Shown here: positions 22,944 through 60,460 of the stretch, piece after piece
Layout of the letters: the number at the start of each line of letters is the position of its first letter
How positions within the stretch are numbered: position 1 is the first letter of the stretch
Assembly: GCA_905160935.1 (NCBI GenBank)
Contig: CAJHZI010000513.1
Span: forward strand, 1,674,501-1,738,500
Source: Enchytraeus crypticus
Lineage: Eukaryota > Annelida > Clitellata > Enchytraeida > Enchytraeidae
Direction: 5' to 3'
Length of the DNA stretch: 64,000 bases
Program-made: the position numbers and the translations under genes
Notes under the pieces: model-generated
Told to the model about the DNA's origin: nothing
Databases searched by the model: none
The model's input: the letters and a program-made list of their open reading frames with translations, nothing else

Positions 22944-24577
22944 CTTAACTTGTAATGCACAATTAGACTATGCCCTTATCAAATCTAAAGGTATCCTAAA
23001 GCTTGAGAAAGCTTGGCCATTTTCGTATTTTACACTGCCTTATTAATATCAATTATGCACTAGCGTGCATTGAACAAGACAACAAAATTTACCTAGAATT
23101 TTATGCAATCATATTTAGCCTACAAAAACTGTTAAATAAAATTGTATTTTAGGAGACTGTGTAAAGTTTGAATGAGCCTGTAGTGAAATTGAGAAAATTG
23201 TTGCAATGATCTAAGGAAATTTGATACAGAATATCAATGACTCATTTGTTTTGTTATGATATGAAAACTCAAAGTAATTGTGAACTTATCTTATTAAAAG
23301 AATAATATTTTAAAGTATTTAGGTAGGGCCCATTGATAATGGACGTTAATGATATCCGTTAAAACATTAAGTTACGCAAGTTTTCTGCTAATCAATTGTC
23401 TCTCTGATAATTTTCGAGTCTTTTTCCAGTTCACCCCGTTAAAGAAAGTGTCGTTGTATTTTAAGTAAAATGCTGAAGAATCCTCGAATGCATTAAATGG
23501 TTTAAGCACGCGTCACTGTTAAAACAATGCTGGACACTGTTGGTAAGGAATCTAGATTTCGTGGTTATTCAAAATCACTAATCCCGTCTTAATTACGTCT
23601 GCCAGGATTCTAAGTTCAGTATCCGCTTATTGATTTCCTTTAGACTATTGAGGGTAGGGGAGGGTGATAGAGGAGGGGCTTAGTAGACGAAACAGTTGAG
23701 AAAAAATTAGTAATAATTGCACCGATAGATATATGCATTCAATATACTTATTGCATTAATTACAGAATTAAAATTAATTTCGTTCAATTATAGTTTTATG
23801 ATGTCTTATAGGCCTACCCCACACTCCGCTTATTTCAGTTATAATAATTAGACACCGCATAATCTTAATGTTATATAATGAAATATTTATTTAGCTCCCG
23901 TTTCAATGTAGAGTAGGCTATAACATGTGACGAGTGAACCAAAGTAATTAACAGATATTAACTCTAAATATTAAACATTTTTCGTAATTAAACATTTTTC
24001 GTAATTAAGCATTTTTCGTAATTGACTTCGTTTGGATTCGTGATTAATAAAGAACTGTTCAGTTAGCATGATTTATTTATCTATATTTTAAATTTTAAAT
24101 TAATTTGTGTAGGGCATATACTGAATAATTTATTGATACTTCGGGCTCTCTTGGTTCTTTCGAGCTAAAAATATAAATTGTTGCAAATATGTTCTACAGC
24201 AATTATTGTAAACTACAATAATATTCATGTCGTATAAAATTTAAGACAATATATAAATCAATATAAAGTGCAAATTAAATCTAGTGTATAGTTTGATAAA
24301 ATAGATAAAATGAAATAGCAACAATATTAAAGCTACATGATCGCACCAACTTTATTGTAGGCCCTTATTTATTTGTAGAGAAATTTCCGTTACTTATATC
24401 TTTTTTTCCACTTTGCTTTTCTCAGGATAGCATTAATTGTACAGGAATCTCTATTGCACTTGTCTATCCTAGTTCAGGTTTCTTCACCCTTTCTATCGAA
24501 ACATAATTAAATATCTTTCCTGACACATAATTCCCTCTCTCTCGGGCTTCCATGGGGGGGTGGGGGGTAAGAATCAT

Positions 24578-24720
24578 GCCTGCGAGGTGTAAGAGAGCGG
24601 GAGGAAGGGTGGGATGTGACACTTACCTTTCCAGGGAAGCGGGTTGGGGTTGATCTGGAATCATAATTGTTATCATACAACCAGGCAGTATATAAGCCGG
24701 GTTTACTCCGTGTTCAGTCA
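24578..24720 (+). promoter_or_regulatory. Promoter of gene A: conserved upstream block, TATA box, TCAGT initiator
   Basis: TATATAAG at 24689-24696 is followed by TCAGT at 24714-24718; the A of the initiator (24716) lies 27 bases after the first T of the TATA box, the usual spacing. The TCAGT cap-site motif is established for arthropod promoters. About 110 bp upstream (24578-24695) are strongly conserved with the equivalent parts of genes B and C, more so than the surrounding flank. The inferred 5' UTR is about 750 nt. Confidence 0.75.
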
Positions 24721-25463
24721 TTCGCTTGTTACTTGAGATCTTATCACAGTCGATGTACTATCTTCATTCGCTGTATTGCTATACACTACTCTCATGAGAT
24801 TCTAATGAGATTCTAATCTAGCATACAGTTATCGATATCAAGATATTTAATTATTTTATAGAGCTTTGAGTATTTCGAAAATTAATGTTAAGATAACATC
24901 GTGGGTGAGTTAAGTTATACTGCAATCGGTAGCTTTTGCCGGCTTGTCCATCGTATCTTAATATAAATCTGCAGAACTACAGGATACTTTTTAGTTCCTT
25001 TCGATTGAACGAACGATACGAAAGCAATCTACAACATCAAGAACGAAATTTAAAGCTTTAAATTTTCCTAATTTTCCTAATTCGAGATCCTATCAGAACA
25101 TTTGAAAGTTTAATCGGAGAATAAAGAAATCTAATAGAACTTCCAAAGATAAAGCATCTCGTTAGCGATTGGTTATAGTAGTGAAAGGAATTAAATTGAG
25201 AGGCTGACATTCGCTGAGAAGCATTGCCGACAGGATTGCTTACTCTCCAGTGACACTTAGCTACATATCAACAGTCAAACTTAGCAGAAGTTTTAGCTCA
25301 TCTGTCACTGCACACGTTAGCAAATATAAGAAGCATTCGAGAATTATTGCTCATCAGTTGAGATTTACAACAGTTGCGAGCGGATCAAATCTATTGCCTG
25401 TAGAAATATTAGAATCGTGGATATATCTAGTGCTGCATAGGACCTAAGCTGAAAAAGGACAAA

Positions 25464-26074
25464 ATGTCAGTTGTTAGGAAGAATTTCCAAGAAGAGAATA
25501 GATTTTTTAGTAAATCTTCCTGGAGCGGTAAAGCTTTACACGGAGTAAAGAAGCGTTTAGCATACGGTAACAATCGTAGTGTCACGGAGCTGAAGCAAAA
25601 CGTCGTATCTTCCGTTGCCTCGGATATCTCGCGGATTTGTACGGAAAAATCTCTATCTACTGGAAGACTTGCAGGAAAATGTGTTTATTTAAATGGTTGG
25701 TAATTAATCTTTGTTTTTTGGACTGCTTAAATTTTGTGTAAATAGTTATCAAATGTTCTTATTAGATTGGAAGTAGACTTTGAATATTCCAGACATTATA
25801 TTCAGTGGTTCTAAGCAAGCAGTCCTTTACTGCATTTTAAAGTCAATTCGTTTTAATTCCATTTTATAAACCAATACTACAGGAGTTATAAAGTAGGAGG
25901 GGGAACGCAAGGGAACTCAGTTCCACTAGCTCTCTTTTTTCTGTGGTGCTTTTCCCTGCTAGGGGCCCATATTCGATACTATGGACCTGTAAATATATTA
26001 TCGAGGGACCCGAAAGCTTCTGACCATTCCCCTAGATCCCAATTCCAACTATTACCTCTCTCTCTCTTTTTCTC

Positions 26075-26109
<35 letters not shown>

Positions 26110-29100
26110 ACACTGCATACTAGTGGCAGATCGAATCTACTTTAATCACTATAACATAGTAATTGCTGTTCATCTTAAATTGCTTGATGAACTGAGTACA
26201 AAGTGTCGACTACTTTTATCGTTTATACGTCAAAAGATGATACTTATATTTTGCTTTATGTTACGTTTAGATGCTCCTGACGCCCCGACCAACGTTCAAC
26301 TGCTGGTAGCAGGTTCAAACAGTCTACGAGTTCAATTTTACCCACCACATCTTAAATCAGAGTCTGCAAGAGTAACTGCATATCGAGGTAAAGATGCAAT
26401 CTATTCATTGTTTCGTAGGCTACTTATCTTACTGGAGTGTACTAAAATGAATATTAATTAGTCATTGATAGTTCTCCTAATATCTGCGCAAAAACTGATG
26501 CCTGTGAAACTTTAAATGTGTTTTATTATAATTGATGTTTATTGCAAAATAATAGAGTAAAAGAAATTTGGTCATGCATGACAATAGCTCAATTGTATAT
26601 TTGATTAAAATTTTGCTCTATCAAGCTGATTGATTGATTAATTACTGATTGATTGACTGATTGATTTATTAATTTACTTTTCTATATGTTTCACAGTTGA
26701 ATGGAGTGAAGAGTCAAACTTCTGCCCTCTATCCGGAAGTCAGGTTGTTCAGGCATCACGTGACCTGCACTGTGACATCACAGACTTGGTGCGAAGCCAG
26801 AGCTACTACGTCAGAGTGAGATCTCTAGCGGGTGATAAGCTTGGACTAGCTGCCAGCTCTAGTCCTGAGTCTGCCGCGCCTTCCAGTACGTTACTATTCT
26901 CTCTGTTTTTATTAATTGATAGTTTACTTAGAAATAAGAATCCAAACTGTAAATTTATTTAGTCATATACATGTATATTATATTAATATTGACATTATGC
27001 TGTACATTATTTGACGAAACGCTGTTTCAAATATAATACCAGAAACAGCGTTTCAATTATTAACCTGTCGGTGAAATATCTAAGTCGGAATTCATTGAAT
27101 GGCACTAAATGGGCTCTAAAGAATATTTTTTTATATAGGTCATTGACAGTTTAATATTAATGGAATAAATTAGCAAACAGTCAATGACCTCTTAGTACTG
27201 TTATACTGAGCGTAGCAGATTAAGATCGATATACAGTCTAAATATTGAGCATAACTCACTAGACCACTTCTTAGGCCAGGCAAATTCTATAGGCTGGAGC
27301 TAGATAGGCTTAGTGAGTATTTTCACTTCTGTACAACACTGTTTAACCTAGGTTAACCTGGTCAAGTCGATTTCCTTTAAATTAATCTTAGATTAGCAGA
27401 GACTTAACTCTAACTTGATTTCAGGAATTGCAATAACATCTTCTATACCATCACGTATATCTATGCAGTTAATTAAACGTTGTTTTAATTAATTTCATCT
27501 CTCAGTTCTTTCATGCTGTATTATATTTAATAAGCTTTCGTTGCTGGCTAAACTCTCTCATAGCCCAGTGTCCCCCATTTCTCCTCTACTTTGCTTCCAT
27601 CGCGTTTTCTATAATTCCAGCCTGTTCCATCAGGACGATGCTACAGATCCATGGAATTGTTAATTAATAACACTCATAATCTCTAGCTTCTTCTTGTTTC
27701 TTATTCTTAATCTTTTGTTCAACTTATTTTCATTGTTACTCTTTCTTCGATAGGCTATAGCCATCAGAATCTGATTCATATTTATTTCAATTCAGCCGGC
27801 TTTCAACCATACGCGAGAAAGACCTGTAGAGAAAGTGTAATGGGAAAACAAAAGCCCGAAGCCCGGAGGCACTAGTATAACCTGTCTGCTGTCATTTAGG
27901 GTCACTTTTTTAATTAATTTATATTTATTTTTTAACTTAGTTTATTTAATATTGAATTGATTAATTTGCTTATTTTAACGAAACATTGATTGATTGACTG
28001 ATTGTTTTTGTAGATTGGAAGGAAGTGCGCAACACTGTGAGCAGGTGGGAAGGAAGAAGGAAGTTTCTGGAAGAAATGTTGGTCAACGTGAAGAACACAG
28101 CTGAGCCTGGAAGTGATCAACTTATAGGTAGACTATGCTTTATGATTTTAAATTTTAATTCTCTCTCTCTTTCTCTCTCCGTTTCTCTCACTTTCTCTAT
28201 CTCGCTCTCTCTCTCATCTATAATTTTCTCTTTATCTTTCGCTTCTCTTTCGTTTTAGTATAGTGCCATAAAACTTGTCTAAGCCAATAATATAGACTTT
28301 ATTTTTAATGCAGAACTTTTACTCAAATTGTACTCAATTTGAACTAATTTCTACTCAAATTGTCAAGTGAAAAATTATATTCCTCGATCAAGTTATATTC
28401 ATATAAGTTATTAATTATATAAATGTGTCAATATATTATGTGTAATTTTGTATTGGTGCAACAGATATGTCACCTGCGAGAAAGCTGAAGGTAAAGAAAT
28501 CTCTGAAGAACTTGTTTTCGGGAGCCGCTAAACTGCACAAGTCTTTCAAAGGGTAAGCTTTTAAATATAATTTTTTAATTGAAGTAATTTATACAGAAAT
28601 ACAGCTAATAAAAACATCTTGAAATTGATTTGTTTAATTTTTCCTTTCTTATTTTCCCTCGTGGGACCACGAACTTGAGAAGTGACCGTTTAAAAAACGT
28701 AATAAGAAATAAATTAAATTTAAAAGAAAATAATAAAAATAAAAAATATTTTGTTTTAAAAATCTTCGTGTTTTTAAAACAAATCAAAAATTACCTATAC
28801 AAATAAATAAGAAGTAAAAAATCATTCTTGAGGACAGATTCAAATTTAAACGTTTCATGATCACATATGACACAGTAGAACCTCTGATATTGAGATTATG
28901 TCTTTCTAAAATACTTAATGCCTACACAGTAGTGTCCTTATTTAAATAAATAATATTTAATATTTTGACACATACTGAAATAATTTAACTATGTTAATAA
29001 TAAGCTATGTGTTTATTTTCATATAATGATAATATTATCCCCCAAGAATAATGGTAGGCCTCTATCAAAAGGAATATTATAGATGATTAAAACATACACT

Positions 29101-32100
29101 TGTAAACATTTGGACATGAAGAGAAAAATGGAAGCTAGAGATGACTGGAGGCGCTATATACCCTGGACCTACCAGTAGGCAGTGCACTAAGAGAGAGAGA
29201 GAGATTAATATATAATTATTCGCACATAATGTTGATTCAATTTAAATGGACATAATGCTAATGTTTTGGTTTGATGTTGCTTGTGTTACAGAGGTATATA
29301 CCTAGCCGCGGTGATACAGCATGATGGCAGAGTTCTGGTGACCAGCGAGGACATGCTCCCAGTAGTCGAGGTCGACTCTGACTACTCCACACCCGCTCTT
29401 CAAGGAAACCTACATTGGCTCATGAAGGTCGGTATATCAGATCGTTTATCTGCAATATACAATATAAATTAGTCATTGCATGAGTAGTTTAAACACCGCT
29501 TTTTTCTATGTAAGGTAACTAAAAATGAATCATTTATTCTCATCAGTCATTTAGTTTCCATACTTGAGGTCAATTTAATACGTGGAAGCCTTACCTTGGT
29601 CTAATACTAAATCGTGCTTAGCGCGTATATTTAATTTGATTTTAGTGTCGCCCAGAAACAAAATTAAATAATATTGATTTAAAATGATTAATTGATAAGA
29701 TGTTGTTGGTATTTATTCATCTAGGTGTCGTGCATGTGGCAGGATGTCAAACAGCTGCTAGCGGAAGTCCAGAAATCCGCTCCTAATTCTGCCGCTAAGC
29801 AATTCCGCGCCAAACTGCTTCACTCTGTCGTTCAACTGCAGACAACACTGGGAATGTATGATCTGGGTCAACTTAACTATCAACCAGTCAGAGACTCCGA
29901 AAGTGGGTCGCTGATTCTGGTCACAGTTCGTTCTCTGAAGGAAGAGAAGTTGACGCAAAACCTGGGTGCTGGATTGAGGTGGATGTCCCTGTGCAAGCTT
30001 CAGATTAGGGCGGGAAGAAGTGGTCAGGGGGCGAGCGAGGATAGAGGCCAGAGAGTGAACGGGGTCGAAAATTCAAGCGAATTTGAGCCTTCGAGAGAGG
30101 GAGAAAGTAGTACAGCCCCAAGTGTTGCCGAAAGGGAAGAAAAATCTGAGGAGATTGTAACTGGCAGTCAGAAACTAGTGGGATCTACTCTGGTAAGTAA
30201 TTCAATGATTTTATTTTACTGCGATTTTTATATTATTGGGCTCAACTTGTTAAAGGACCAGACAACTTTTCGTCAGATTGCATTTAGAGAGATCAGCTAA
30301 AAACTTATTATAACGTTGTGTTAACGTCGGTTGAATCTGTCGAAAGCGATAAACGTGAGGGCGGGCGAGACCAGGATTTGAATCCACAAATATTGATTCG
30401 CGTACGAGCATCTTACCGACATTTGTCCCGAGGCCTTCGTTATGACACATTTTAGCAGAGAACTAAAAGGCCCTTAAATTATAGATTAGGCCTACTGTAA
30501 TACAATTCGCCTGTTAAACACGAATTGATCTAATATTTTATAATGTATTAGTTAACCTACTACATCAATATTATGATGTGTAGCCTTAGTTAAAACTATT
30601 AGAGTTAGCTAACGATGGTTGACTAGCTTAGTATGTGAATATAAGTTGCCTCACTGTCAGTATTATAATGTGTGAATTTCATTGATGTTCACAGGAGTTG
30701 ATAGCATTCCAGTATTTGAGCGGATTACGCCTGCCCAAAGGTTTGTACCTCGGGTACCTGAAGCTAGCTTGTTCACTGGATGAGATTAGTATCAATCTAC
30801 ACAAGCATCAGCCAAACATTCTACCAAACGTCAAAGTGCGCAGTAACAACAATGTATCTAGGTATGACTATTCTCTAATCTTTAATAATAATTAATTAGT
30901 AGTCATTATTTACATGTAGTTACCTTTAATAATGCTAAGTGAGTTCAAAAAACTATATTTTATGCAATTCGTTAAATTTTGTTTATAATTTTACAGAAAC
31001 ATCGATTCTTGTGATTCTTTCAAACACTTCACTTTGTATAAACGACAAATTTAATATCGTATGCAAATTCTTCGAATGGTAGAATTATTGTACCAAAATG
31101 TGTTGCCTTTTCGGACATCCCAATTTTCATGCACTTTTATCGTTAAAGGAAACGGCAATACATGTATGTTTAAATTGTATATAGTTTAATAGTAATTTGC
31201 AATTTATACATAATTTAAAACTTTTTGGAATTAATTTTTTCAGTGACGAATGGTCGTGGTTCTGTGGACTAAGCAATGAGGATGACGACATTCTACAGAT
31301 GAAGCCAACAGAGGCGCAGGTTCAATTCCACAATCAGATATCAACCGCTTGTGGCAAACTATTCCAAGATCTAGGTTAGCCAAGTTACTATTCAATATGC
31401 CATTACCATGCGCAGCTTTAGTTGAACAGGAGCAATTAGAAAAATGCAGTTAATTTTTTCTTATTTATTCTAACGCTGTAGAAATACTTTTCACAGTATT
31501 GACTGACCATAATGAATTTTTATTTTAACTATAAATAGAATCTGCAATCTTTACGCAGCAAATTTAATCTAAATGATACTGGAATTGTAGTAATTGACTA
31601 GTTAGACTTAAGTTCAACATTCTATTTGCCATTTCTTCTACATTAACAATCAGTCAGTCAATTAAGCTCTTTAATTAAAATATTTTACAAATATTTTGAA
31701 TCTGTTAGCAAATCTAATTTATTTAAAAAACTAGTAAACAAATAAGTCAATTAGCCTAAGCTATTTAGGTGAAACATTCTGCAAATGTTGTACAGCGGTT
31801 ACAAGTAATCAATCAATTTAATTAAATTCTACCAATGTTGTTTACGTAGGAGTGAACAAGAACACGGTTTCAGAGCACAGAGTCTACCATCACGAGGTGA
31901 TAGATCTGGGGGGCGATGTGTCTCTAGTACTGGTGCTGCCTCCTGTCGATGAAGTGTGCACTGGACCAGGGGTGGTGGACAACTCCCTGCGGCCCAAAGT
32001 TCCTCTCATGACTCTGCCCGTACAGGTCTTCGAAATATGTAAGTATTTTAGCCTCCGCATAGATCGTAAATGAAATTTATATTCTTGTTACAAACTATTG

Positions 32101-33743
32101 TTAAGTATAGTTAGCAGTTTTTACAATAAATAATAGTTTAATTAGCAGTTTTTACAATAGATAATGTTTTATTATTTCGATGACTTAAATAAGTCACATG
32201 TAAAAAAGCTGGTAAAGCGAAGGTTAAATTCAGTTTCCTCACTCGAAAGCGATGTCAGTGACGGGCGAGCCCAGAATTTGATCCGCGGTCGAGTATCTTA
32301 CCGACATCGACACTGGCTCCAGCCAATGTAATGTAATGTAGATGACAAACGATGTAGTCTTTTTGATGAAATCGTTTTGTTAGTTGACCGACAGCATGCT
32401 CCCGAGAAAAAAAGGAAGTGTTTCATAATTTTATATGGGATCACGTATTAGGGAAAACATATATCTGATATATGTAAAAATATAACAATCTGTCAGAGTG
32501 AGCTAATGTCTATTCAATGTTTATTTCACCAAATTTATAGCAGTAAGAAACACATAAACAGAAATCAAAAACAACACAAATCGCCGTAAAGAAAATAAGG
32601 AAAGTAAACATAACTAGTGTACCAAACGCAATCCCTTCTCTAATATCATTAGACTAGTTACGGCAGTAACTCTTTAAAATATCTATGATTTATGCAAAAA
32701 TAGTGTGTCAAAAAGCATCACTTAAAGTTGTTAGGATCAAGTGACACTGCTCAATGCGTGAGATATTTACGTATCTATATTGCGATTACATTGTAATCAA
32801 GTATTTCAGAAATAAAGATTTAGAATGTAACTTGATGATGACGGGATGTCTTGTATTATTTCACAGTGCATCAGAGGACCTACCAACCTGATATGATCAA
32901 GAGATATAGTCAACTGTCCTGCCACCTGGACGCCAGGATCAATGCGGCTCAACAAACTACTAGACAGGTTTCTATTAAATTATAACTAATTAAGCAACCT
33001 AAATTGATAAACACGTTTTGCTAAATCACTAATATAACCATTGGGCTAAGAGTTGATCAAATTACAAAGTAAATCAGGATCCATTGGAAGTATTAATTCT
33101 TTTGATTCAGTAAGCCAATTTCAAGCATTCAAATAAATATAAATATTACTAATGAAGCATTGTGATTGAATGAGAGCCCAAATAATAATTTAATATATCT
33201 TGCGATCAACTTAATTCCATCTGTGGCTCTAGGTAGAAAGATAAGATAAGATAAGAAAGATAAGAAATTGAAGTTATTCAATATTGTGTATGTTAATATA
33301 TATTAGTGAGCTAGATATTATGCTCTATAATTTTTGCTAAGAAATATTCACTATTGAGCTTGAAGTAAATGCTCTATAAGTAGTATATAATTGCTAACTG
33401 ACTTTATCTGGTTTGAACACGTTTTCTATTCTCAATATTTCAGGCTTTCACTACTGAAGACCTCGTGAAGGCTAAAGAGAGATTGACATTGAGCACTGAG
33501 CAGCTGAAGAAGCTGGATGAAAATTACAAATCTATTCGCTGGATCGTCGATATCATCACAGCAGCTAGAGATAAGAATTTCTGCTGTGGACCCACCGTGG
33601 CTCGACTCAACACAACTCTGGCGTCGGTCAGCAGTCATCCCTGGCACCCGGTTAACAAGTTAACAGGGAACAATAATGGAGGCAGTGAAGCAGACGATGC
33701 GGCTACAAGATCATGCAGGAGCCCTCTGGTGACTTACGTGTGA
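25464..33743 (+). CDS. Gene A: ankyrin-less ANKFN1/WAKE-like protein, intact, 12 exons
   Basis: Exons: 25464-25695, 26271-26387, 26697-26885, 28014-28127, 28465-28552, 29292-29427, 29725-30192, 30695-30861, 31244-31374, 31850-32038, 32867-32967, 33444-33743. All introns are GT-AG, phases join without stops, and the sum is 2232 nt (743 codons plus stop). Residues 1-77 are a basic leader I do not recognise. Residues 78-179 form one FN3 domain (DAPDAPTNVQLLV, VEWSEES, YYVRVRSLAG). The rest matches the conserved ANKFN1/WAKE C-terminal half: RGIYLAAVI, VSCMWQDVKQLL, LPKGLYLGYLKLACS, NNNVS then DEWSWFCGLS, VSLVLVLPPVDEVCTGPG, IRWIVDIITAARD. Residues about 375-448 are an acidic, low-complexity insert. 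In Drosophila, WAKE is a clock-output protein acting on GABA-A receptor placement; the ankyrin repeats of that family are absent here. The start is the first ATG after the mapped promoter, with an in-frame stop just upstream. Family assignment is confident; function is inferred only from the family. Confidence 0.88.
26055..26108. repeat. (CT)n microsatellite at a LINE-type 3' end, intron 1 of gene A
   Basis: Directly followed by CAGTACACTGCATACTAGTGG, which resembles the LINE end seen at 1664 and 51348. Confidence 0.85.
26271..26885 (+). CDS. FN3-domain exons 2 and 3 of gene A
   Basis: Two exons (26271-26387 and 26697-26885) encode a single fibronectin type III domain. The first gives the A/B-strand region with the APTNVQL start. 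The second carries the W of the C-strand region (VEWSEES) and the YYVRVRSLAG segment expected before strand G. Both exons begin and end in phase 1, so the pair is a symmetrical cassette that can be lost without a frameshift. The same pair is present in gene C (51718-51834, 52145-52333) and missing from gene B. Confidence 0.85.
28158..28256. repeat. (CT)n-rich stretch in intron 4 of gene A
   Basis: Imperfect CT repeat just after the exon 4 donor. Counterparts sit in the same intron of B (45698-45783, as GA) and C (53137-53220). Confidence 0.85.
29105..29205 (+). mobile_element. LINE 3' end fragment with (GA)n tail
   Basis: Lies in intron 5 of gene A. It reads MKRKMEARDDWRRYIPW and then CAGTAGGCAGTGCACTAAG running straight into GAGAGAGA. 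It is in the same orientation as the coding strand and similar to the reverse complement of 51348-51480. Confidence 0.5.
29725..30192 (+). CDS. Exon 7 of gene A: conserved helical segment plus acidic variable insert
   Basis: A 156-codon phase 0-0 exon, the longest of the gene. Its first half (SCMWQDVKQLLAEVQKS, LGMYDLGQLNYQP) is a conserved ANKFN1 segment. Its second half (from about KLQIRAGRSG on) is rich in E, S, R and G and differs between copies, so it is probably a disordered linker. The equivalents are 44450-43983 in gene B and 54423-54890 in gene C; the predicted B and C proteins are identical over this exon. Confidence 0.85.
30305..30435 (-). mobile_element. SINE family S in intron 7 of gene A
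   Basis: Minus strand: GATTTGAATCC (B box) and GCGATAAACG/TCTTACCGAC blocks. It occupies the same intron and orientation as those in genes B and C, so it predates the triplication. Confidence 0.6.
32208..32325 (-). mobile_element. SINE family S, private to gene A intron 10
   Basis: Well-preserved copy (TTTCCTCACTCGAAAGCGAT, GTCAGTGACGGGCGAGCCC, ACACTGGCTCCAGCC) ending in a short TGTAATGTAATGTAG run. Missing from intron 10 of B and C. Confidence 0.7.
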
Positions 33744-33774
33744 ATTGCGAAAAACAAGAATTTCTCAACTCTGC

Positions 33775-33780
33775 AATAAA
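33775..33780 (+). terminator. Candidate poly(A) signal of gene A
   Basis: AATAAA begins 32 bases after the stop codon. A second AATAAA is at 34239-34244. Neither is kept in exactly this form in B or C, so which one is used is open. Confidence 0.4.
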
Positions 33781-39112: not shown

Positions 39113-39117
<5 letters not shown>

Positions 39118-39182: not shown

Positions 39183-39186
<4 letters not shown>

Positions 39187-45717: not shown

Positions 45718-45748
<31 letters not shown>

Positions 45749-47391: not shown

Positions 47392-47688
47392 TTTGTCCTT
47401 TTCCGGCTGAGATATTATGTAGCACTAGATATTTTTAATTTTCTGATGTTTCTAATTCCAGTAAGGACTAAGTTTACCGTTTACAGTATAACTTAACTCA
47501 GCTGCGAAGCAATCTCAGCACCAAATTTCTGAATACTCAAAGCTCTATTAGATAATCCAATATCTCGATTAGATCTCGATAACTGTATGCTAGAGTAGAA
47601 GTTTCTATCTCATGAGAGTAGTTTATAGCAATGGCGAATGAAGATATAGTACATCGCCTGTGATAATATCTCAAGTAACAAGTGAATG

Positions 47689-47831
47689 ACTGAACACGGA
47701 GTAAACCCGGTTTATATACTGCCTGGTTGTATGATAACAATTATGATTCCAGATCAACCCCGCCCCGCTTCCCTGGAAAGTTAACTGTCACTTCCCACCC
47801 TTCCTTCCGCTCTCTTACACCTCGCAGACAG
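47689..47831 (-). promoter_or_regulatory. Promoter of gene B: TATA box and TCAGT initiator
   Basis: On the minus strand, TATATAA runs from 47718 to 47712 and TCAGT from 47693 to 47689, again 27 bases from first T to initiator A (47691). The conserved upstream block occupies 47712-47831. It faces away from the gene C promoter about 3 kb off. Confidence 0.72.
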
Positions 47832-49338
47832 GATTCTTAATTGCCCTCCTACCCGCAAGGAAGCCTGAGAGAAGGAATTATTTGTCAGGAAAGAAATTTA
47901 ATTAGGCTATGAAGGTAGAAATCATGAAAATAACTGAACTAGGAAAGACAAGTGCAATAGGGATTCCTGTACAATTAGCCTACTGATATCCTGAGAAACG
48001 GAAAGTGGAAAAGGGAGAAATAAGTAACGGAATGTTTTCTTAAAGTAAATAAGGGTAGTCCAAAAAACAATAATGGAAAAGATCATAATTTATATAGCTT
48101 TAGCCCTGCTACCATACTTTTCTCAATTTAAAGTTATTTCGCTCGAAGGGAATTCTATAATCCATATAATATTTCTCCGAACAGAATGTCAATAAATTAT
48201 TCAGTCGGCCTCTGTGTCCTACAATAATTAATTTAGTTGTTAAGAGGTAAAAAATAGATAAATAAATCGTGTTACCTGAACAGTTCTGCATTAAATTCAC
48301 TAAAATGAAAAACCATGTAAATATATCCAGGAGAATATTTAATTGAGAAAAATGTTAAGTATTTTATATTTAATATCCCTTAATGATTCTCGTTCACTCA
48401 CCCGATGTTATAGTCACATTGAAACGGCCGTTTATTTGAAATTTCATGATACTACTTTTAGATAAGCAGCATTTAATTATGATAGGCTAACTGAGATAAA
48501 TGGAGTATGGGGTAGGTCTATAATGCATTATAAATTGATAATGAACAAAATGAATTTTGATTCAGTAATTTGTGCAATTATTAGATTTAATAATATTTAT
48601 ATATGGTTTAATTAGTTTATTATATTTTCCACCTGTTTCCTCTAACAGACCCCTCCCTTATCCCCTCTCCCCTCAATAGTCTACTAATCGGAATCAATAA
48701 GCGGATACAGAACTCAGAATCCTGGCAGGCGTAATTATCACGGGACTAGTGATACTGAATACTCACGAAAGCTGTATTTCCTCACCAAGAGAGTCCAGCA
48801 TTGTCTTAATAGTGACACCTGCTCAAATCATTTTATGTATTGATTGTTGGATTCATCTGCATTTTGCTTAACACACAATGACACCATTAGGCTTTCTGCT
48901 AAGCTGCAGAGTTATGCGACTGGTCGAACGGGAAAGAATCGGAATGCAAAACTGTCTAATTACCAAATGTAAGAAACAAGCCAACTTGAAAATTACCGGA
49001 GATATAATTGATTAGGGCAAACCGTGCCAAACTTATTGGTTTAAAGGATGTAATTATCACCCATTATCAATACATAACTATTTGAAAATGTGATTCTTTC
49101 AATAAGATGATTTCACAATTAGTTTGAGTTTTCTAGTAACATTTAAAAAAATTATTTATGGACATTTTTCCAATTATCATTGCAAAATTGTTAGCAATAT
49201 CACTTTAGAATAATTGGCTAATTCGAACTTTGTAGGTCAACATTGCAAATATAACCCTTCTAAATTAAAAAAAGGCCTACTAATTAAATTAATAATTTCA
49301 GCAAACACTTTGGATAAAATTGTTGGTAAATACAGTAT

Positions 49339-49478: not shown

Positions 49479-49546
<68 letters not shown>

Positions 49547-49587
49547 CCTACTGTATATATACTATATATATATATAGGCCTACTGTA

Positions 49588-49623
<36 letters not shown>

Positions 49624-49717
49624 CCGGTAATTTTCGAATTGGCTTGTTTCTTGCATTTTGTAATGAGACATTTTGCATTCCGATTCTTTCCCGTTCGACC
49701 AGTCGTATAACTCTGCA
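49339..49717. repeat. Palindromic junction between units B and C
   Basis: A perfect 102-bp inverted repeat: 49339-49440 pairs with 49616-49717. The spacer is almost pure (TA)n interrupted by two TAGGCCTACTGTA segments. A third, diverged copy of the arm sits at about 48908-49015 in the 5' flank of gene B, in the same direction as the left arm. Confidence 0.85.
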
Positions 49718-50589
49718 GCTTAGCAGAAAGCCTAACGGTGTCATTGTGTTTTAAGCAAAATGCTGATGAATCCGACAATCAATGCATTAAATGATTTGAG
49801 CAGGTTTCACTATTAAGACATTGTTGGGCTCTCTTGATGAGAAATACAGCTATCGTTATTATTCAATAACAATAATCCTGTGATAATTACGTCTACCAGG
49901 ATTCTGAGTTCAATATCCGCTTATTGATTCCGTTTAGACTTTTGAGGAAAGAGCGGAGTGGAGGAGAGGGAAGGAGGGAAGGGGTCAATTAGAGGAAACA
50001 GGTGGGTAATGTAATAACAATAATTATACCATCTTTAGAAAGTATATTAAATATAATAATTTCACAAATTACTGAAATAAAATTCATTTTGTTCATTTAC
50101 AATTTATTATGCATTAAAAACCTACCCCACACTCCACTTAGCACAGTTAGGCCTACGATAATTAAACGCTGCTCATCTTAATGCTATAGCACGAAAATTC
50201 TACTAAATGACCGTTTCAGTATAGAATATAGCAACGGTTGAGTGAAAGTCTTTAATGGATATTAAGTCAATAGTAGGCCTACTAACAATTTTTCTTGAAT
50301 TATATGTCTTGAACAATTTAACAAATATTGAAATATCAGTAGTGCTAAAGCTATATATGGTCTTTTCCATTCTTGTACAAGCCCCTATGTACTTTATGAC
50401 AACATTCCGTTACTTATTTCTCGCTTTTCAACTTTCCCTTTCTCAGGATATCTCTAATTGTACAGGAATACCTATTGCACTTGTCTTCCCTAGTTCAATT
50501 ATTTTGAAAATTTTCACCTTAAGACAATTAAATATCTTTCCTGACACATTATAACCTCTCTCAGGCTTACTTGGAGGAATTAAGAAACC

Positions 50590-50731
50590 TGCCTGCGAGG
50601 TGTAAGAGAGCGGGAGGAAGGGTGGAATGCGACACTTAACTTTCCAGGGAAGCGGGGTGGGTTTGATCTGGAATAATAATTGTTATCATACAACCAGGCA
50701 GTATATAAACCAGGTTTGCTCTGTGTTCAGT
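50590..50731 (+). promoter_or_regulatory. Promoter of gene C: TATA box and TCAGT initiator
   Basis: TATATAA at 50702-50708 and TCAGT at 50727-50731, with 27-base spacing to the initiator A (50729). The upstream block 50590-50708 matches those of A and B (AAGAGAGCGGGAGGAAGG, TTTCCAGGGAAGCGGG, TTGTTATCATACAACCAGG). Confidence 0.72.
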
Positions 50732-51075
50732 AATTCGCTTGTTACTTGAGATATTATCACAGTCGATGTATAATATCTACATTCACCATTGTTATAAACT
50801 ACTCTCATGAGAAAGAAACTTCTACTCTAACATACAGTTATAGAGATCTAATCGAGATATTGAATTATCTTATAGATCTTTTAATATTCAGAAATTTGAT
50901 GTTGAGATTGCATCGTAGCTGAATTATGTTATACTGTAAACGGTAAACTTAGTCCTTACTGACGTATTGAACACAATTTACGGCATATGCTTGATGATCA
51001 AGTCATCTGCTATTAGAAACAACAGAAGATTCAAAGTATCTAGTGCTACATAGGATCTCAGCTGAAAAGGAGAAA

Positions 51076-54000
51076 ATGTCACTTGTTAGAAAAAATTTCC
51101 AAAAAGAAAATGGGTTTTTTAGTAAATCTTGCTGGAGCGGCAAAGCTTTCCACGGAGTAAAGAAACGTTTGGCATCTGGTAACAATCGACATGTAACAGA
51201 GCTGACGCAAAATGTCCTGACTCCTGTTGCCTTGGATATCGCGCGGATTTGTACGGAAAAAGCTCTTTCTCATGGAAGACGTGCAGGAAAATGTACTTCT
51301 TTAAATGGTTGGTATTGAATCGACTCACGTCACGTTGTTTATCTCTCTCTTAGTGCACTGCCTACTGGCAGATCCATGGTATATATCGCCTCCACTCTTT
51401 GTCTTCCGCCTTCCTCTTCATTTCCACATATGAGTGGGTCTTTAAATCATCTATCATTTATAATCTTGGCCTGCCCCTGCCTCTTTTTCCTTTCACTCTA
51501 CCTTCTATGACCTCTATTAATAGACCTTCCCCCGTTAGAATGTGTTCTATCTAACTCTTCTTCTTATTTCTTAATACATTTATCAAATGTCTATCCATCC
51601 CAGCTCTCCACTGCGCCACATGTTTAGATTACCTCATATTTAAAATTTACGGTAATCTAATGTGGTATGTACATAAAATATGATACTTATAATTAATTGG
51701 CTTTGTCTTATGTTTAGATGCTCCTGACGCCCCGACCAATGTTCAACTTATGGTTGCGGGTTCAAACAGTCTACGAGTTCAATTCTACCCACCATTTCTT
51801 AAATCAGAGTCTGCAAAAGTAACTGCATATCAAGGTAAAGAAGCAATCTTTTCATAATTTCATTTGGTACTTGTCTAACTTTAATTGACTAAAATTGATA
51901 TTATGTATTCATTGGTAGGTCTTTTAAAATCTGAACAAAATTTATACCACTGAAACTTTAAAATGTGTAAGGCCTATTTATAAAATGATATTAAGTAGCC
52001 TAGACTACAGAATAAATGGAGTCAATAAAAGTTGGTCATGCATAACAATAGCTCAATTGTATATTTAATTTAACGAGCTGATTGATTTATTAATTACTGA
52101 TTGATTGATTTATTTATTAATTGACTTTTCTAATTGTTTCACAGTTGAATGGAGTGAAGAGTCAAACTTCTGCCCTCTATCCGGAAGTCAGGTTGTTCAG
52201 GCATCACGCGACCTGCACTGTGACATCACAGACTTGGCACGAAGCCAGAGCTACTACGTCAGAGGGAGATCTCTAGCGGGTGATAAGCTGGGACTAGCGG
52301 TCAGCTCAAGTCCTGAGTCTGCCGTGCCTTCCAGTACGTTACTATCTATACACATTGTTTTCATAAATTAATATATGCATCATTAGAACACCAACAAGAT
52401 GGGGTAGCAAGTTACGAGTAACAAGGTTGCAAGTTACATACAATAAACACAAAATAACAACAATAATACTCTCATGAACAATAATCGAAATAATATATTA
52501 AGATTGTCGTTTACTTTGATAGGCATATAAGGTTGCATTAGGTAGAGTGTGAAATATCAGAGTCTGAAATCATTGAATAACTTTAAATATAGGCTTTCAA
52601 GTATATCTGGTTTCAATAGTTAAATAAAATTATTAAATAGTTAAATAAAATTACTAAATAGTTAATTGATAGTGTAGGCCTACTACATCACAGGAATAGG
52701 TTAGCGAATAGCCAATCACATCTATACGGTTAATAAACCATTGTTTAAATTAGTGCTAGAATTCGAAGGTGTTTCATGCAACTCCGTGGATTTTCTAATA
52801 AGCAACACTTATTATTTCTAACTTTTTCTTAATCTTTTGTTAAACTTCTTTTTCACTATCACTCCGTCTTCGAATTTCAATCGCTATTAGGATCATTTTT
52901 CATCAGTAAATTTTTAAATATGCATGTATGTGTTTATTGTAACGCGAAATCTAGACATTGCTAGATTAATTGATTGATTGATTGCTTTTTGTAGATTGGA
53001 AGGAAGTGCGCAATACTGTGAGCAGGGGGGACGGAAGAAGGAAGTTTCTGGAAGAAATGTTGGTCAACGTGAAGAACACAGCTGAGCCTGGAAGTGATCA
53101 ACTTATAGGTAGCCTATGCGTTTGGATTTTAAATTTTAAATCTCTCTCTAACTATCTCTCTCTCAATCTCTCTTTTTCTCTATCTCTCTCTGTCTCTGTC
53201 TGTGTCTCTATCTATCTATTATTTTCTTTGCATCTTTTGCTTCTCTTACTATTTATACTTACCAGAAAACTCGTCTAAGCCCCTAATTTCTAGGTAATTT
53301 TTAAATAATTTAATAATGATTTTAATTTTATTCTAAAACGATTAACGGTATTCAAAATGAAGAGGTCGGTCTCCTATAACTAACTCCTCCGATGTGGAGC
53401 AAAAAGTATGTATATATCTAATTAATGTAGAAGTAAAATACATTTTTAATTATGTAAATTACATTAGTCTATGGGTTATATTCTATTTGTACAACAGATT
53501 TGTCACCTGCAAGAAAGATGAAGGTAAAGAAATCTATGAAGAACTTGTTTTCTGGCGCCGCTAAACTGCACAAGTCCTTCAACGGGTAAGCTTTTGTATA
53601 ATTGAAATTGAAATAATTTATAAAACATGCCGCTAATAGAAATATCGTCTAATTTGTTAGTTATATAATTCTATAGCTTAGTATTTTTTCTCATTTGACG
53701 GTGAAACATGAGAAGAGACTATTTTAACTGTTTGTGTTTCTATTTTTAAAAATCAGATATTGCCTTAGGCAGATACATATGGATAGCAAATGTAAAATCA
53801 CCAACCAAGACGTACAGTAGTTTTAAATTTAAAACGATTCATAAACAGAATAGAATCTCACATATAAAATGTCCTTATGAGAATTGCCACTTAATAGTTA
53901 ACAATTTAAATTTTTTTAAATGCATAGGCAAAATAAATCATATGAAATATTAAGTGGTTTTTATTATGTTACATGTGTTACAGAGGTATATACCTAGCCG

Positions 54001-57000
54001 CGGTGATACAGCATGATGGCAGAGTTCTGGTGACCAGTGAGGACATGCTCCCAGTAGTCGAGGTCGACTATGACTACTCCACAGCCGCTCTGCAGGGAAA
54101 CCTACATTGGCTCATGAAGGTCGGTATACCAGATCTTTTAAATACAACATACAATATAAATTAATTTTGTTTTGCATGAGTTGTTCAAACACCGCTTTTT
54201 GTCTATGTAATTTACCTAAAAATGAATTATTAATTCTCATCAGTCATTTAGTTTCCATACTTGAGGTCTATTTACAACGTGGAAACTCTATCTTCGTCTA
54301 ATACTAAATCGTGATTAGCACGTTTAATTAATTTGATTTTAGTGTCGGCTGGAAACTAAACAAAATAATATTGATTTAAAATGATTAATTAATAAAAATG
54401 TTGTTGTTGTTCATACCTCTAGGTGTCGTGCATGTGGCAGGATGTCAAACAGCTGCTAGCGGAAGTCCAGAAGTCCGCTCCTAATTCTGCCGCTAAGCAA
54501 TTTCGCGCCAAATTTCTTCACTCTGTCGTTCAACTGCAGACAACACTGGGAATGTATGATCTGGGTCAACTTAACTATCAACCAATCAAAGACTCAGAAA
54601 GTGGGTCACTGATTCTGGTCACAGTTCGTACTCTGAAGGAAGAGAAATTGACGCAGAACCTTGGTGCTGGACTGAGGTGGATGTCCCTGTGCAAGCTTCA
54701 GAGGAGGGCGAGAAGAAGTGGTCAGGTTGCGAGCGAGGATAGAGGCCAGGTTTTGACGAGGGTCGAGAATTCAAGTGAATTTCTGCCGCCGAGAAAGGGA
54801 GAGAACACAGCAGTCCCAAACGTTGCCGAAAAGAAAGAAAGAACAGAGGAGATTGTAACTGGCAGTCAGAAGCTTGTGGGTTCTGCTATGGTAAGTTACT
54901 CACTGATTTTGTTTCACTAATATTTTGTAGTTACTGGGGGTCATATTTTAACAAAGGACTAGTTTACTTTTCATGAGATTATCTTTTTGAAAGACCAGTC
55001 TGTAGCCAAGTGGAAGAAGCTGTAAAGTTTATGTTAACTCCATTTTCTTCTCTCTAAAGCGATATCAGTGATGGGCAAGTTCAGGATTTGAACCCACACG
55101 TACTTATTCGCTATCGGATATTGCCACAGGCTGCATCCGGATTAAACTATCTGAAATTCTGAATTGTTCTTTGCAGACGTTACGTAATAACAATGTGAAT
55201 TGGGTCACTGTGTCCTTAAATACCCATAAAGTTATAAATAATATACCTAGTGTAATATGATTTTTATGTTAAGCACGAATAGATCTAACGTTTTATAATA
55301 TATCAGTTAACTTTACTGTTTCAATATCATAGTTTACTAAACTAATTAAATCCAACTAAGTAAACTAACTAAACTAGTTAGAACCTTAGGTATCATTTAA
55401 ATTTCTTTAATTAACTGCGGGTTAATTAGCTACCTTAATGTTTTTAGTTACCGTTATATGTCAAAATGAGATGCCTCACTGTCATTACTACAATCATGTG
55501 CATTGCATTGATGTTCACAGGAGTTGATAGCATTCCAGTATTTGAGCGGATTACGCCTGCCCAAAGGTTTGTACCTCGGATACCTGAAGCTAGCTTGTTC
55601 ACTGGATGAGATTAGTATCAATCTACACAAGCATCAGCCAAACATTCTACCAAACGTCAAAGTGCGCAGTAACAACAATGTATCTAGGTATGACTATTCT
55701 TTAATCGTTAATTAATAATAAATAATTGTCGTTATTAGATATCTTTCATATTGCCAATAGAGTTTAATAACTGTTTTTCAGCAATTCGTTTATAAAGTTA
55801 AAACAACACCGACTCTAAGGCCTATGTAGGCCTATCTCTCAGGCACTTAACTTTAATAAAAGTCAAATTTTATACGATTTGTAGATTCTTCGAATGATTG
55901 AATCATTTTATTCAAATCCGTTGCCTTTTTGGACATTCTTAATTGTTCACTTTAAGTTTAAAGGGACTTGTAATATATTTCTATTGTACAGTATTTAATG
56001 TAATAGTAGGCTAATATACAATTATGGCATAAATTGAAACTTTTTACAATTAATTTTTCAGTGATGAATGGTCGTGGTTCTGTGGACTAAGCAATGAGGA
56101 TAACGACATTCTACAGATGAAGCCATCCGAGGCGCAGTTTCAATTCCACAATCAGATATCGACCGCTTGTGACAAACTATTCCAAGATTTGGGTAAGCCA
56201 AGTTACTGCATAGTTTGTCTTCATCAACTCAGTTTAAGTTAAACAAGAACAATTATGAACAAATTTAATTTTAAGCGATTTTCAAATCCATCTAGACCCC
56301 TATACGTTTTCAAAATAAGCCTAACAAAATAAGCTAACCATGAGGAATTTGTATACTTACTGTAGCGTGTATAATTGTTCATAAAACCTCTACTCCAATA
56401 CACGGCATTTAAAATTTTATCCAAATTTTTAGAATTTTAATAATTGACTCACTACATGTAGATTTAAGTTCAGTTTTCTATCTGATATTTCTACTACATT
56501 ATCGATAAATCAAAAAAAGCCTGAATATTTTGCTAAATTGTCAATCTTTTCGCTAATTCAATTTATTGAAAAATTGAACATAAATAAATAAAAAAATTGA
56601 GCCATTTAATTTAAAGCTCTAAAAGGTTTGTAATTAGTTACAAGTAATTAATGTATTTAATTGTAATCATGAATGTTATTTACGTAGGAGTGAACAAGAA
56701 CACGGTCTCAGAGCACAGAGTCTACTATCACGAGGTGATAGATCTGGGGGGCGATGTGTCCCTAATACTGGTGCTGCCGCCTGTCGATGAAGTGTGCACT
56801 GGACCAGGGGTGGTGGAAAACTCCCTGCGGCCCAAAATTCCTCTCATGACTCTGCCCGTACAGGTCTTCGAAATATGTAAGTATTTTAGCCTCCGCGTAG
56901 ATCGTAAACGCATTTATTTTCTTGCTACAAACTATTGATTAGTATAGTTAGCAATTTGTACAATAGATAATGTTTTACTATTTCGAAGCCTTTAGTATTT

Positions 57001-58507
57001 TAGATGGCAAGAAAATGAAACCTTGTGATAGAATTATATTGTTGGTTTATCGACGGTGTGCACGTAATAAAATTTAATAGAAGAGTTGCGTAATGATTGA
57101 ATTTTCTATGGGATCCTGTGTTTGGGAAAACATAAATGCGATATAGAAACATAACAATCTATCGGAGTGACCTAATTTCTGAGGTTTATTCAAAATATTA
57201 TGGGTAAAAGGCATCATTTAGAGTAGTTTAGAATCTAATTACACTGCAAGTGTTCTCTGCATTATATATATTTTTTGTATATTAAGATTACATCACTGTC
57301 ACGTATTTTTAGTATAACTAATTAGAACTTAATTTGATGATGACGGGATGTCTTGTATTATTTCACAGTGCATCAGAGGACCTACCAACCTGATATGATC
57401 AAGAGATATAGTCAACTCTCCTGCCACCTGGACGCCAGAATCAATGCGGCTCAACAAACTACTAGACAGGTTTCTATTAAATTATAACTAATTAAGCAAC
57501 CTAAATTGAATAACAAATTGGTAGCTCAATAATGTAACTATTAGGTTAACAATTAATCAAATGGCAAATTAGTTTAAATCAGGAGATTGGTTAAACTGGA
57601 AGGATCATTATCTATGATTCAATCAACCTCATTCAATCGATCAAATAGATGTTAATTGCTTACTACGAATTTTAGCATAAGCTAGTGTTTATGATGGGAC
57701 TCCATATAGGAATTTCATAGGCCTATATTAAAAATTCAAATATCCAGCTGTAGGCTTAGGTAGAGATAAGGAGATAAAAGCAAAGAAATCTAAGAACTAT
57801 TCATAATCATCATCTTTCCTTAATTCCCAGCTTAACTAGGGTCCCGATACGAATAGACCTTCTCCAATCCTCTCTGTCCCACACCATATCATCATCAAAT
57901 TCTCTATTTTTTCCATTCGCTTAAATTTTCAAACAATTTCGGGAGCCAAGGCGCTCATCAACCGAATGCCCTTTCTGACGTTGGTTTAGATCTTGTTTTT
58001 ATGTCTCCTTCTACGACAACTACATATTTACTCTGTTTGTCTATTCTTCAGGCAACCCGAACTCAACACGGGAAGATTATAAGAACAAGTAATAATTGAG
58101 CTGTATGCGATTGCTCAATAATCAATTATAAGAAATTCTAATATTTCTTATACTTCTTAATGACTATATCTGGTCTGAACACGTTTTCTATTCTCAATGT
58201 TTCAGGCTTTCACTACAGAAGACCTCGTGAAGGATAGAGAGAGAGACTGACAGTGAGCACTGAGCAGCTGAAGAAACTGGATGAAAATTACAGATCTATT
58301 CGCTGGATCGTCGATATCATCACAGCTGCTAGAGATAGGAATTTCTGCTCTGGACCCACCGTGGCTCGACTCAACACAACTCTGGCGTCGATCAACAGTC
58401 ATCCCTGGCACCCAACTAACAAGTTAACAGAGAATAATAAAGGAGGCAGTGAAGCAGGCGATGCGGCTACAAGATCATGCAGGAGCCCTCTGGTGACTTA
58501 CGTGTGA
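51076..58507 (+). CDS. Gene C: ANKFN1/WAKE-like paralogue with FN3 and a frameshifted last exon
   Basis: Exons: 51076-51307, 51718-51834, 52145-52333, 52995-53108, 53498-53585, 53984-54119, 54423-54890, 55521-55687, 56062-56192, 56688-56876, 57369-57469, 58206-58507. Exons 1-11 match gene A in length and phase (1932 nt, no stops), including FN3. In exon 12 a (GA)n tract is two bases longer than the homologous stretches of A and B, so the frame reads AFTTEDLVKDRERD and then stops at about 58248-58250, giving about 658 codons. The former frame stays open beyond it to 58507 and still reads STEQLKKLDENY and IRWIVDIITAARD, so the shift looks recent or is a sequence error. As the stop lies in the last exon, nonsense-mediated decay need not follow. 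In-frame ATGs upstream of 51076 exist (51043), but the start aligned with A and B is preferred. Confidence 0.8.
51348..51625 (-). mobile_element. LINE 3' fragment in intron 1 of gene C
   Basis: On the minus strand it reads EGRVKGKRGRGRPR and later HSYVEMKRK and WRRYIPW, the usual tail of an arthropod-type non-LTR retrotransposon ORF2 (basic G-R-G-R-P-R motif followed by W-R). Stops interrupt it. The 3' end abuts a short CT run. Confidence 0.6.
53137..53220. repeat. (CT)n-rich stretch in intron 4 of gene C
   Basis: Imperfect CT/TGTCTC repeat in the position equivalent to A and B. Confidence 0.85.
54423..57469 (+). repeat. Near-identical inverted arm, copy in gene C (exons 7-11)
   Basis: Partner of 41405-44450 in opposite orientation, 3047 bp. 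Similarity drops sharply in intron 6 before it and in intron 11 after it. Confidence 0.8.
55015..55145 (-). mobile_element. SINE family S in intron 7 of gene C
   Basis: Inverted equivalent of 43735-43860, apparently base-identical in the parts compared. Confidence 0.62.
57815..58050 (-). mobile_element. LINE 3' fragment in intron 11 of gene C
   Basis: Similar in sequence to 63440-63530 (AACCAGTGTC/AACTAGGGTC, ATACGAATAGACCT, CAATCCT blocks). Absent from the same intron in A and B, so it inserted after the copies split. Confidence 0.5.
58206..58507 (+). pseudogene. Frameshifted terminal exon of gene C
   Basis: Homologous to 33444-33743 (gene A) and 40918-40619 (gene B), each 300 nt; this copy is 302 nt. 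Between the conserved AAG codon and the CTGACAGTGAGC block there are 14 bases, where gene B has 12. The extra pair lies in a GA run. The consequence is loss of the C-terminal helix region found in A and B (STEQLKKLDEN to SPLVTYV). Confidence 0.75.
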
Positions 58508-60460
58508 ACTGCGTAAAACAAGAAATTATTAAAGAAAATGAATCTCGATACTTAAAATCTGCAACCGCTCCTAAAAGGAATTACAGACTTTTATGAGAAA
58601 TCGAAAAATTACAGTTAGTCTCGATTAGAGGTGTCTGAACCAGCAGATGCACCAGATCTCAAACTATAGCTTTCTAACTTATCTTTTCACATAAACAGCT
58701 CTACTGCAATAATTGTCGTATAGCTTCTGCCATCTTGCGATTGAAAGGGTGCATCAAAGAATTGATAGCGTAGAGAGAGTTAATAGGATCTATCATGTAT
58801 CGTCTATCCATGATTTTGTTATTGACTTTTTACGTTGCATATAATTGTATAAATGTAAATATTTCCAAATGTGACAGCTTCTTATTCGTGTAAAACTACG
58901 CCGTATACTGTATGTGAACTGTTGTGAACGATTTTTCAGTTGCTCATTATTGTAAAGAGATTGCGTTATTTTATATGCAATTGTCCGCCATGCTGAATAC
59001 GACTTTTGATATGATAGTATGCCTTATATACAGTTATATTTCATTAAATTTCTGTTACCGTAATTTCAGTTTATCAACCGTAAATGGAACTTTGCGTCCG
59101 TTGCCTTGTATTATATTCTATAGTTATTCCCTAGAGTAAATATCGTACTTGTTTGCTAATACGTTATTTGTAAATGTCAGATTGTAATTCCGATTGATAC
59201 TGTGATATATTATAACATTAACTAAAATTTCTCACCGTTTCTTATTCACAAAGGTTCTAGATTTACAACAGATTCTGTAATTATTATCGATATCTCATCA
59301 GGACATAAAAACAAAGCTATTAAGGCTGAGTTTAACGTCTGTTTCATATCAAAAGTTAACTGAGGCAATCTGGTGGGGTTTTTAAAAATGTTTATTAACC
59401 CGGTGGTGGCTGAGTATATACCAAAATAACGTAATACACTGAGTGCTTTAACCGCACATACTTCAAGAACAGGGAGGGTCAATCTAAAAAACAAACAAGC
59501 AGCAAATATCAAATACATTTTGTTGACCGTTACTAACTCTGCATCCTCAACAAAATACAATGATATAAAAATAGAAATAAAACCAATTACAAAACTTCAC
59601 TAGTCTATAAATCAAACACTCAATGTAAAACGTTCAATATTATGTTACATACTCACACAGTTACAACTGTAACTACAGGCATACAAGTATATCGCTCAAC
59701 TTAAGGCAAAATTAATCCGTTGATCAGTTATTAAAGCGAGATTTTTATTACAGGAGCTCCATATTTAAAATCCAAGTCGTGTCGGCTAGGTCTTTAAGTC
59801 ACTTTTTAACGAAAAAATAAAAGATAAATCTTCAAATGTAGCTTTCAAACGTTGTTCAAACAAAATATGTCGACTTCAGGCCATAGCATGCCTGACTATT
59901 TTACTCACACGCCACGGGTTTGAATCTCAGTCGGTTCACTATCTTAATTCCTACCAGGGATGCTGAAATAGACCCTAAAACCTTAACTTAGTCAATTACC
60001 CGCATCACATGGTAAATTGAATACAATCAAAAATCATACACGCATAAGAATACAGCATACTTACACATGAATGCATCGCAAAACAAATCAATTCAGCATA
60101 GCTGCGAGCTTCGTGGGCATGCACGAATACACTGAATCTTAACACAAACGAGCAATACACTTAATCAAGAAAAGGAACGAATCTGCACCATAAGACATAG
60201 TACATTAAACCTATCAATGGCTAACCTATTACACATTCAACAACTTGTTGAATTTGCCACAAATAAGGATTCCAAAGGAAAACATCGCAGGGTGAACTAT
60301 TTGAACAAATGCGCTACACATGACTAATAGTCTACCTTTCGAACTATAGTTTACCTTTATAGTTTTAAAGTTGTAATTAAATAAACGGCTAAATGAAAAC
60401 ACTATAATGAATCTATGAAGACGATATAGAATATATACAATAAAGATCCTGGGAAACGAC

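Follow-up and report, generated by a model that had tools for sequence, protein, structure and literature searches.

ANKFN1/WAKE-like short genes with their own promoter and leader: probable lineage-specific paralogs beside two full-form genes

Three related genes in the 64,000-nucleotide stretch of DNA analysed here (the window; C420:1674501-1738500), together with a fourth copy on contig C132, are probably lineage-specific ANKFN1/WAKE paralogs that carry their own promoter and leader, have lost the ankyrin part and the C-terminal tail, and encode core products beside full-form proteins. ANKFN1 is a brain and balance gene. On the simplest reading, one short founder with its own promoter and leader would have been amplified, leaving at least four short genes now, A, B and C in the window and D on C132. 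The same genome holds two full-form genes, here called C204 and C332, and a divergent homolog, G.

The gene cluster and its relatives in the genome

Searches for direct and inverted repeats, together with pairwise BLAST, delimit three related blocks in the window, A (+), B (-) and C (+), and bear out the plus-minus-plus cluster that the first-pass annotation had described in this part of the window. Exon models were built from splice sites for A and by alignment to A for B and C, as follows.

25464-33743, plus strand: copy A, 12 coding exons, 743 aa, intact
26271-26387 and 26697-26885, plus strand: copy A FN3 exons 2-3 (Pfam fn3, E 7.8e-9)
28014..32967, plus strand: copy A core exons 4-11, with GLYLGYLK in exon 8 at 30695-30861 (splice sites, phases and 40-41% identity to the C204/C332 core)
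33444..33743, plus strand: copy A exon 12 with stop, ending SPLVTYV (exon model)
47391-40619, minus strand: copy B, 10 exons, both FN3 exons absent, 641 aa, intact
40619..45930, minus strand: copy B exons 4-12 (alignment to A)
51076-58507, plus strand: copy C, 12 exons, frameshifted, product of 658 aa
51718-51834 and 52145-52333, plus strand: copy C FN3 exons (alignment to A)
52995..58507, plus strand: copy C exons 4-12, of which exon 12 is frameshifted (alignment to A)

Exon lengths and phases had been called identical among the three copies. The phases do agree in all ten common exons; the lengths agree in nine, the last exon of C measuring 302 nt against 300 nt. The difference is a 2-nt insertion in an AG run near 58236-58245, because of which C stops at about 58248-58250 and loses 85 C-terminal residues. 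In A, B and D the ORFs are complete and the splice sites GT-AG. Their frames have stayed open and spliceable among introns that differ by many indels, a preservation beyond chance to which the low dN/dS of exons 8-11 (below) adds. The peptide GLYLGYLK is unchanged in A, B, C and D, and this, with the core identities given below, upholds the proposed kinship with ANKFN1.

Ten of the 40 open frames listed for the window were scanned against Pfam as neighbouring ORFs, and none had a match. Elsewhere in the window, positions 6773-7300 hold a long low-complexity GTGA/GTGG array, whose composition alone leaves three minus-strand frames open, and positions 12912-13263 hold a 22-bp minisatellite of alternating similarity, possibly with a 44-bp higher-order unit. 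A dispersed repeat of ~136 bp occurs five times in the first 20 kb (3528, 6009, 9667, 15228 and 20065), with a relative near 62391-62515, and is found again on C132 at about 920.7 kb, ~10 kb upstream of copy D.

The genome searched comprises 524 Mb in 802 contigs. At E 1e-3, with 60 of 63 candidates scored, copy A protein hit 52 exons spread over five contigs, and at E 0.1, with 54 of 54 candidates scored, the joined core pieces of C332 gave 51 matches; both searches reach the same seven loci, A, B, C, D, C204, C332 and G. Parts of the genome may be absent from the assembly, which makes seven a lower bound. The first-pass annotation had given the family as usually described with a single copy, which two family surveys support for invertebrates: one ANKFN1 gene per genome ('most invertebrates' in one abstract), and none in urochordates (PMC9210315, PMC4488434). 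At least seven homologous loci depart from that rule. Elsewhere in the genome, 46 FN3 matches (counted by hand), among 150 scored genome-wide, lie on one strand of C111:490000-595000, where there may be a giant FN3 gene or a gene cluster. On contig C802, COX1 gives a sensible translation with genetic code 5 and looks lophotrochozoan, and a tRNA scan next to it had no hit.

Copy D (C132:911070-904605, minus strand) is a fourth short gene with the same leader; it lacks FN3, is intact at 641 aa and ends in TDV. It shares one collinear block of ~9.5 kb with the window, at ~76-91% identity, and elsewhere scattered matches of at most ~520 nt. The local amplification that had been proposed thus stands as an amplification for A to C, but with D on C132 it was not only local.

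An ankyrin-bearing ANKFN1 gene had been suggested as a target for a genome search; it was found, but as two genes. C204 (about 204.3-176.1 kb, minus strand) and C332 (about 990.6-1005.6 kb, plus strand) are mutually collinear full-form genes with N-terminal exons, two ankyrin-like exons, FN3, core and a long C-terminal tail. Their second ankyrin exon matches Pfam Ank at E 0.004 and 0.008 in the two genes, under the curated cut-off, and no Ank model matched the first in either gene. The two tails are similar to each other (31.6% over 79 columns, E 2.7e-4) and lie where the published RA domain lies, which suggests an RA domain there; as they match no Pfam RA model, that assignment stays short of proof. 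The C204 tail matched no Pfam family, and against the PDB gave three matches only, at E 0.94-1. Searching the core against solved structures turned up no solved relative; what came up was a weak FN3 similarity in three cases (E 0.0047-0.45) and a single further match at E 1. The divergent homolog G (C195:758008-766340) has core exons with GLYVGLLK; within the 50 kb examined around it, and with limited sensitivity, ankyrin, FN3 and tail were not recognised.

Core identities, computed from hand-trimmed exon pieces, are 93.5-95.0% among A, B and D, 71.9% between C204 and C332, 39.6-41.6% between A, B or D and C204/C332, and 34.3-38.9% between G and all others. An unrooted tree of six of the seven loci, with C left out, pairs C204 with C332 (100/99), unites the short genes in one clade (100/100) and places G on a long branch.

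The low identity between short and full cores, set against the 71.9% within the full-form pair, and the unrooted state of the tree would also suit a short clade that is an old, separately inherited ANKFN1 type, one without ankyrin repeats from the outset that has since disappeared in other lineages. We consider this improbable. In C332, as in A and C, FN3 begins with a phase-1 exon, and the further C332 exon edges that were compared by eye agree in phase with those of the short genes, so that FN3 phase and these intron positions are common to both; and the surveys report ankyrin motifs in the family across animals (PMC9210315, PMC4488434). Separate matches in both C204 and C332 imply an intron within exon 7, which the short genes lack. 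Under the preferred reading, that the short genes derive from a full form, the ankyrin part and tail would have been lost and not primitively absent, a direction that leans on the published distribution of the family.

Promoter, leader and missing parts of the short genes

The short genes begin with a promoter block and a leader exon of their own, located as follows.

24568..24757, plus strand: copy A promoter block, TATA TATATAAG at 24689-24696, initiator-like TTCAGTC, predicted start 24716 (repeat search, 93% with C; four-way alignment)
47646..47839, minus strand: copy B promoter block (repeat search, 94% to A; alignment)
50581..50770, plus strand: copy C promoter block (repeat search; alignment)
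25464..25695, plus strand: copy A exon 1, leader of 77 aa, donor GTTGGT (232 nt, open in A, B, C and D)
47160..47391, minus strand: copy B exon 1, leader (alignment to A)
51076-51307, plus strand: copy C exon 1, leader (alignment to A)
45925..46110, minus strand: junction left by the two missing FN3 exons in copy B, also seen in D (B, D, C and A sequences compared by eye)

The claim that each copy has its own promoter agrees with the four-way alignment, in which TATATAA and TTCAGT(C/A)ATTC are retained in A, B, C and D. Transcription starts are predicted at 24716 (A), 47691 (B) and 50729 (C). Over its 190 nt, the block of A agrees at 93-94% with those of C and B, on a par with the coding exons. 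Directly upstream of the TATA box (window 24650-24690 and its equivalents in B, C and D) lies a near-invariant stretch, GGAAT-ATAATTGTTATCAT, which is perhaps a regulator site.

A distinct leader had also been proposed, and in the genome search with copy A protein no locus besides the four short genes was hit by the leader at E 1e-3. It is joined in phase 1 to the FN3 exon in A and C and to a core exon in B and D. As a coding exon it is weak, with substitutions spread nearly evenly over codon positions. Its in-frame donor, GTTGGT, is what we take to be a poor match to the usual donor consensus, and use of a second GT four bases downstream would bring a stop in frame. Weak as this coding signal is, the leader is open and 232 nt long in all four copies, and the FN3 of A and C (dN/dS 0.28, A vs C) would be translated through it.

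Peptides from the N-terminal, ankyrin, FN3 and tail parts of C204 and C332 were searched by tblastn, at a loose threshold, against the window and 30 kb around D. The ankyrin queries gave nothing credible: their best window match was to exon 12, at E 0.88, and around D they reached E 0.61. The tail queries had no match in either. One N-terminal peptide reached E 0.016 to window exon 7, the best of all non-FN3 queries there, and is taken for a chance match. In a positive control, the FN3a peptide of C204 recovered the FN3a exons of the window at E 0.001-0.002, and that of C332 missed them; with one of two controls recovered, the sensitivity of these searches is fair and not full. At E 5 a general ankyrin consensus hit neither the window nor the D region, and it is a weak probe, since it found the known exons of C204 and C332 only at E 0.061 and 0.42. 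Pfam scans found no Ank in the A and B proteins. Dropping of the ankyrin part, as first described, is matched by the absence of any credible ankyrin match in the window, and has to be widened: the last exon of the short genes stops after the core, and the long tail seen in C204 and C332, at the place of the RA domain of ancestral-type ANKFN1 genes, is missing from them too.

On these searches with full-form ankyrin peptides and the general consensus, at their fair sensitivity, hidden ankyrin exons in the window and around D are rejected. It is very unlikely that an ankyrin part is still joined to the short genes through exons that lie outside the window or are too diverged to see. The ~24 kb upstream of A were covered by similarity search only, one of the two FN3 queries failed, the leader donor is weak, and G shows that divergent family members exist; yet B and C stand head to head with predicted starts ~3 kb apart, which leaves little room for upstream exons, promoter and leader are common to all four copies, and the ankyrin exons of the full forms match nothing credible around any of them.

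FN3 is present in two copies of the window, as had been claimed: in A by Pfam, and in C by alignment of its FN3 exons to those of A. It is absent from B by Pfam and gene model and from D by gene model. Exons 2, 3 and 4 all start in phase 1, and loss of the FN3 exons of B is therefore frame-neutral; one such deletion, with a shared junction, underlies the lack of FN3 in both B and D. At the deletion junction in D a repeat of ~320 bp is inserted (C132:910483-910169), with relatives at window positions 11290 and 37557.

Selection on the core and exchange between copies

Judged by substitution ratios, strong purifying selection on the core is demonstrated, and the leader and the end of the tail are weakly constrained or not constrained. 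Among A, B and D, dN/dS is 0.04-0.16 in exons 8-11 (4-9.5 nonsynonymous vs 12-25 synonymous changes), 0.16-0.30 in exons 4-6 and 0.34-0.40 in exon 7. For the leader it is 0.57-0.75 among the same copies and 0.35-0.42 in pairs with C, five pairs having been computed. Exon 12 has 0.38-0.67 overall and 0.18-0.23 in its first 54 codons; in its last 45 codons the ratio exceeds 1, on only 1-2 synonymous changes.

A class I PDZ ligand is a C-terminal S/T-x-hydrophobic motif. The short proteins end in such a motif of three residues only, TYV in A and B and TDV in D, and it is lost in C. The C-terminal T-x-V of A, B and D may be a putative PDZ ligand, and Dlg is a reported partner of fly Banderuola (PMC9210315). 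The elevated ratio in the last 45 codons fits relaxation as well as adaptation, which weakens the PDZ idea.

The pairwise comparison of B and C shows that the two exchanged DNA by interlocus gene conversion. The partner tracts are these.

41387..44454, minus strand: gene-conversion tract in B, partner 54419-57487 (6 differing columns in ~3.07 kb)
54419..57487, plus strand: gene-conversion tract in C, partner 41387-44454 (pairwise comparison with B)

The tract is 99.8% identical and ends abruptly; in the flanks, the aligned blocks drop to 82-89% identity and carry many indels, and past the 3' end a stretch of intron can hardly be aligned between the two copies. Near-identity over 3.07 kb is also what would be seen if B, C or D were duplicated haplotypes of one gene, but those diverged, indel-rich flanks, and the restriction of D's collinearity with the window to one ~9.5-kb block at ~76-91% with scattered matches elsewhere, lead us to reject an assembly duplicate, and we rate such an artefact as extremely unlikely.

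Conversion leaves B and C partly homogenised on our reading, and the history of the copies appears mosaic. Outside the tract, informative sites favour the grouping AD|BC, by 23 vs 2 and 3 in the exon 12 block and by 38 vs 2 and 0 in the 3' block. The blocks of exon 7 (38 sites), exons 8-9 (36) and exon 10 (12) favour it too and are no independent support, because they lie wholly or mostly inside the tract. No grouping is decided by the promoter plus leader block (10, 8 and 4) or by the blocks of exons 4, 5, 6 and 11. B and D have one FN3-deletion junction in common, against AD|BC at the 3' end; no single tree fits both, and conversion or recombination is the likely cause.

These patterns also bear on whether the short genes are merely partial copies heading for loss, with conversion masking decay of the core. 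That is unlikely, if less so than the readings weighed above: the frameshift in C, the weakly constrained leader and tail and the missing FN3 of B and D would all fit decay, but A, B and D retain full ORFs and GT-AG sites, exons 8-11 carry fewer nonsynonymous than synonymous changes, and the promoter block is as well preserved between copies as the coding exons.

A reduced branch of the ANKFN1 family

By their core the short genes are kin of ANKFN1, and by the ankyrin test, applied to their sequences, they are not full members. Like ANKFN1/WIDE AWAKE of the ancestral type (Banderuola, Nmf9), they have the GLYLGYLK core, FN3 (in A and C) and exon phases as in C332; unlike it, they start from a promoter and leader of their own, exist in several copies and show no recognisable ankyrin exons or tail, and B and D lack FN3. 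According to the surveys, GLYLGYLK is the most constrained ANKFN1 peptide, the region around it is the most conserved part of the protein and is without known function of its own, and vertebrates have a derived RA-less Ankfn1 paralog (PMC9210315, PMC4488434). That paralog, as described in one of them, resembles the short genes as a partial duplicate without the RA domain and differs from them in being single, dating from jawed vertebrates and carrying ANK and FN3 (PMC9210315). A third paralog, of ray-finned fish, with a weaker ANK match, GLYVGILK and no RA, is comparable to G, with its GLYVGLLK and no recognised ankyrin, FN3 or tail, and differs from A-D, in which GLYLGYLK is unchanged (PMC9210315). 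In the literature searched, mostly open journals and judged from listings, we found no report of ankyrin-less multi-copy ANKFN1 forms; searches for ANKFN1 with PDZ, mollusc or gene duplication likewise returned nothing on such copies.

We favour, then, the reading of the short genes as lineage-specific paralogs. Their products would be cytoplasmic core proteins, centred on the constrained GLYLGYLK domain and freed of contacts made through ankyrin or the tail. Most likely they would work alongside the two full-length proteins, either as a scaffold or by competing with them for partners of the core. The new role first proposed for a C-terminal region no longer tied to ankyrin may or may not hold; what the sequences show is constraint on the core. 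A bolder proposal, which we put forward tentatively, is that the ANKFN1 core is an autonomous functional module: the short genes would then form a family of core proteins that stayed functional, with conversion evening out part of their sequence and with fast-evolving ends (the leader and the PDZ-ligand-like tail), serving as decoys or new scaffolds beside the two full-form proteins.

In the inverted B-C pair, interlocus gene conversion can be seen cleanly and with sharp bounds. For the family, a set of seven or more homologs in which four are cut back towards the core amounts to natural domain deletions that set dispensable parts against parts under selection, and the short genes allow what the core does by itself to be tested in the absence of ankyrin and the C-terminal tail.
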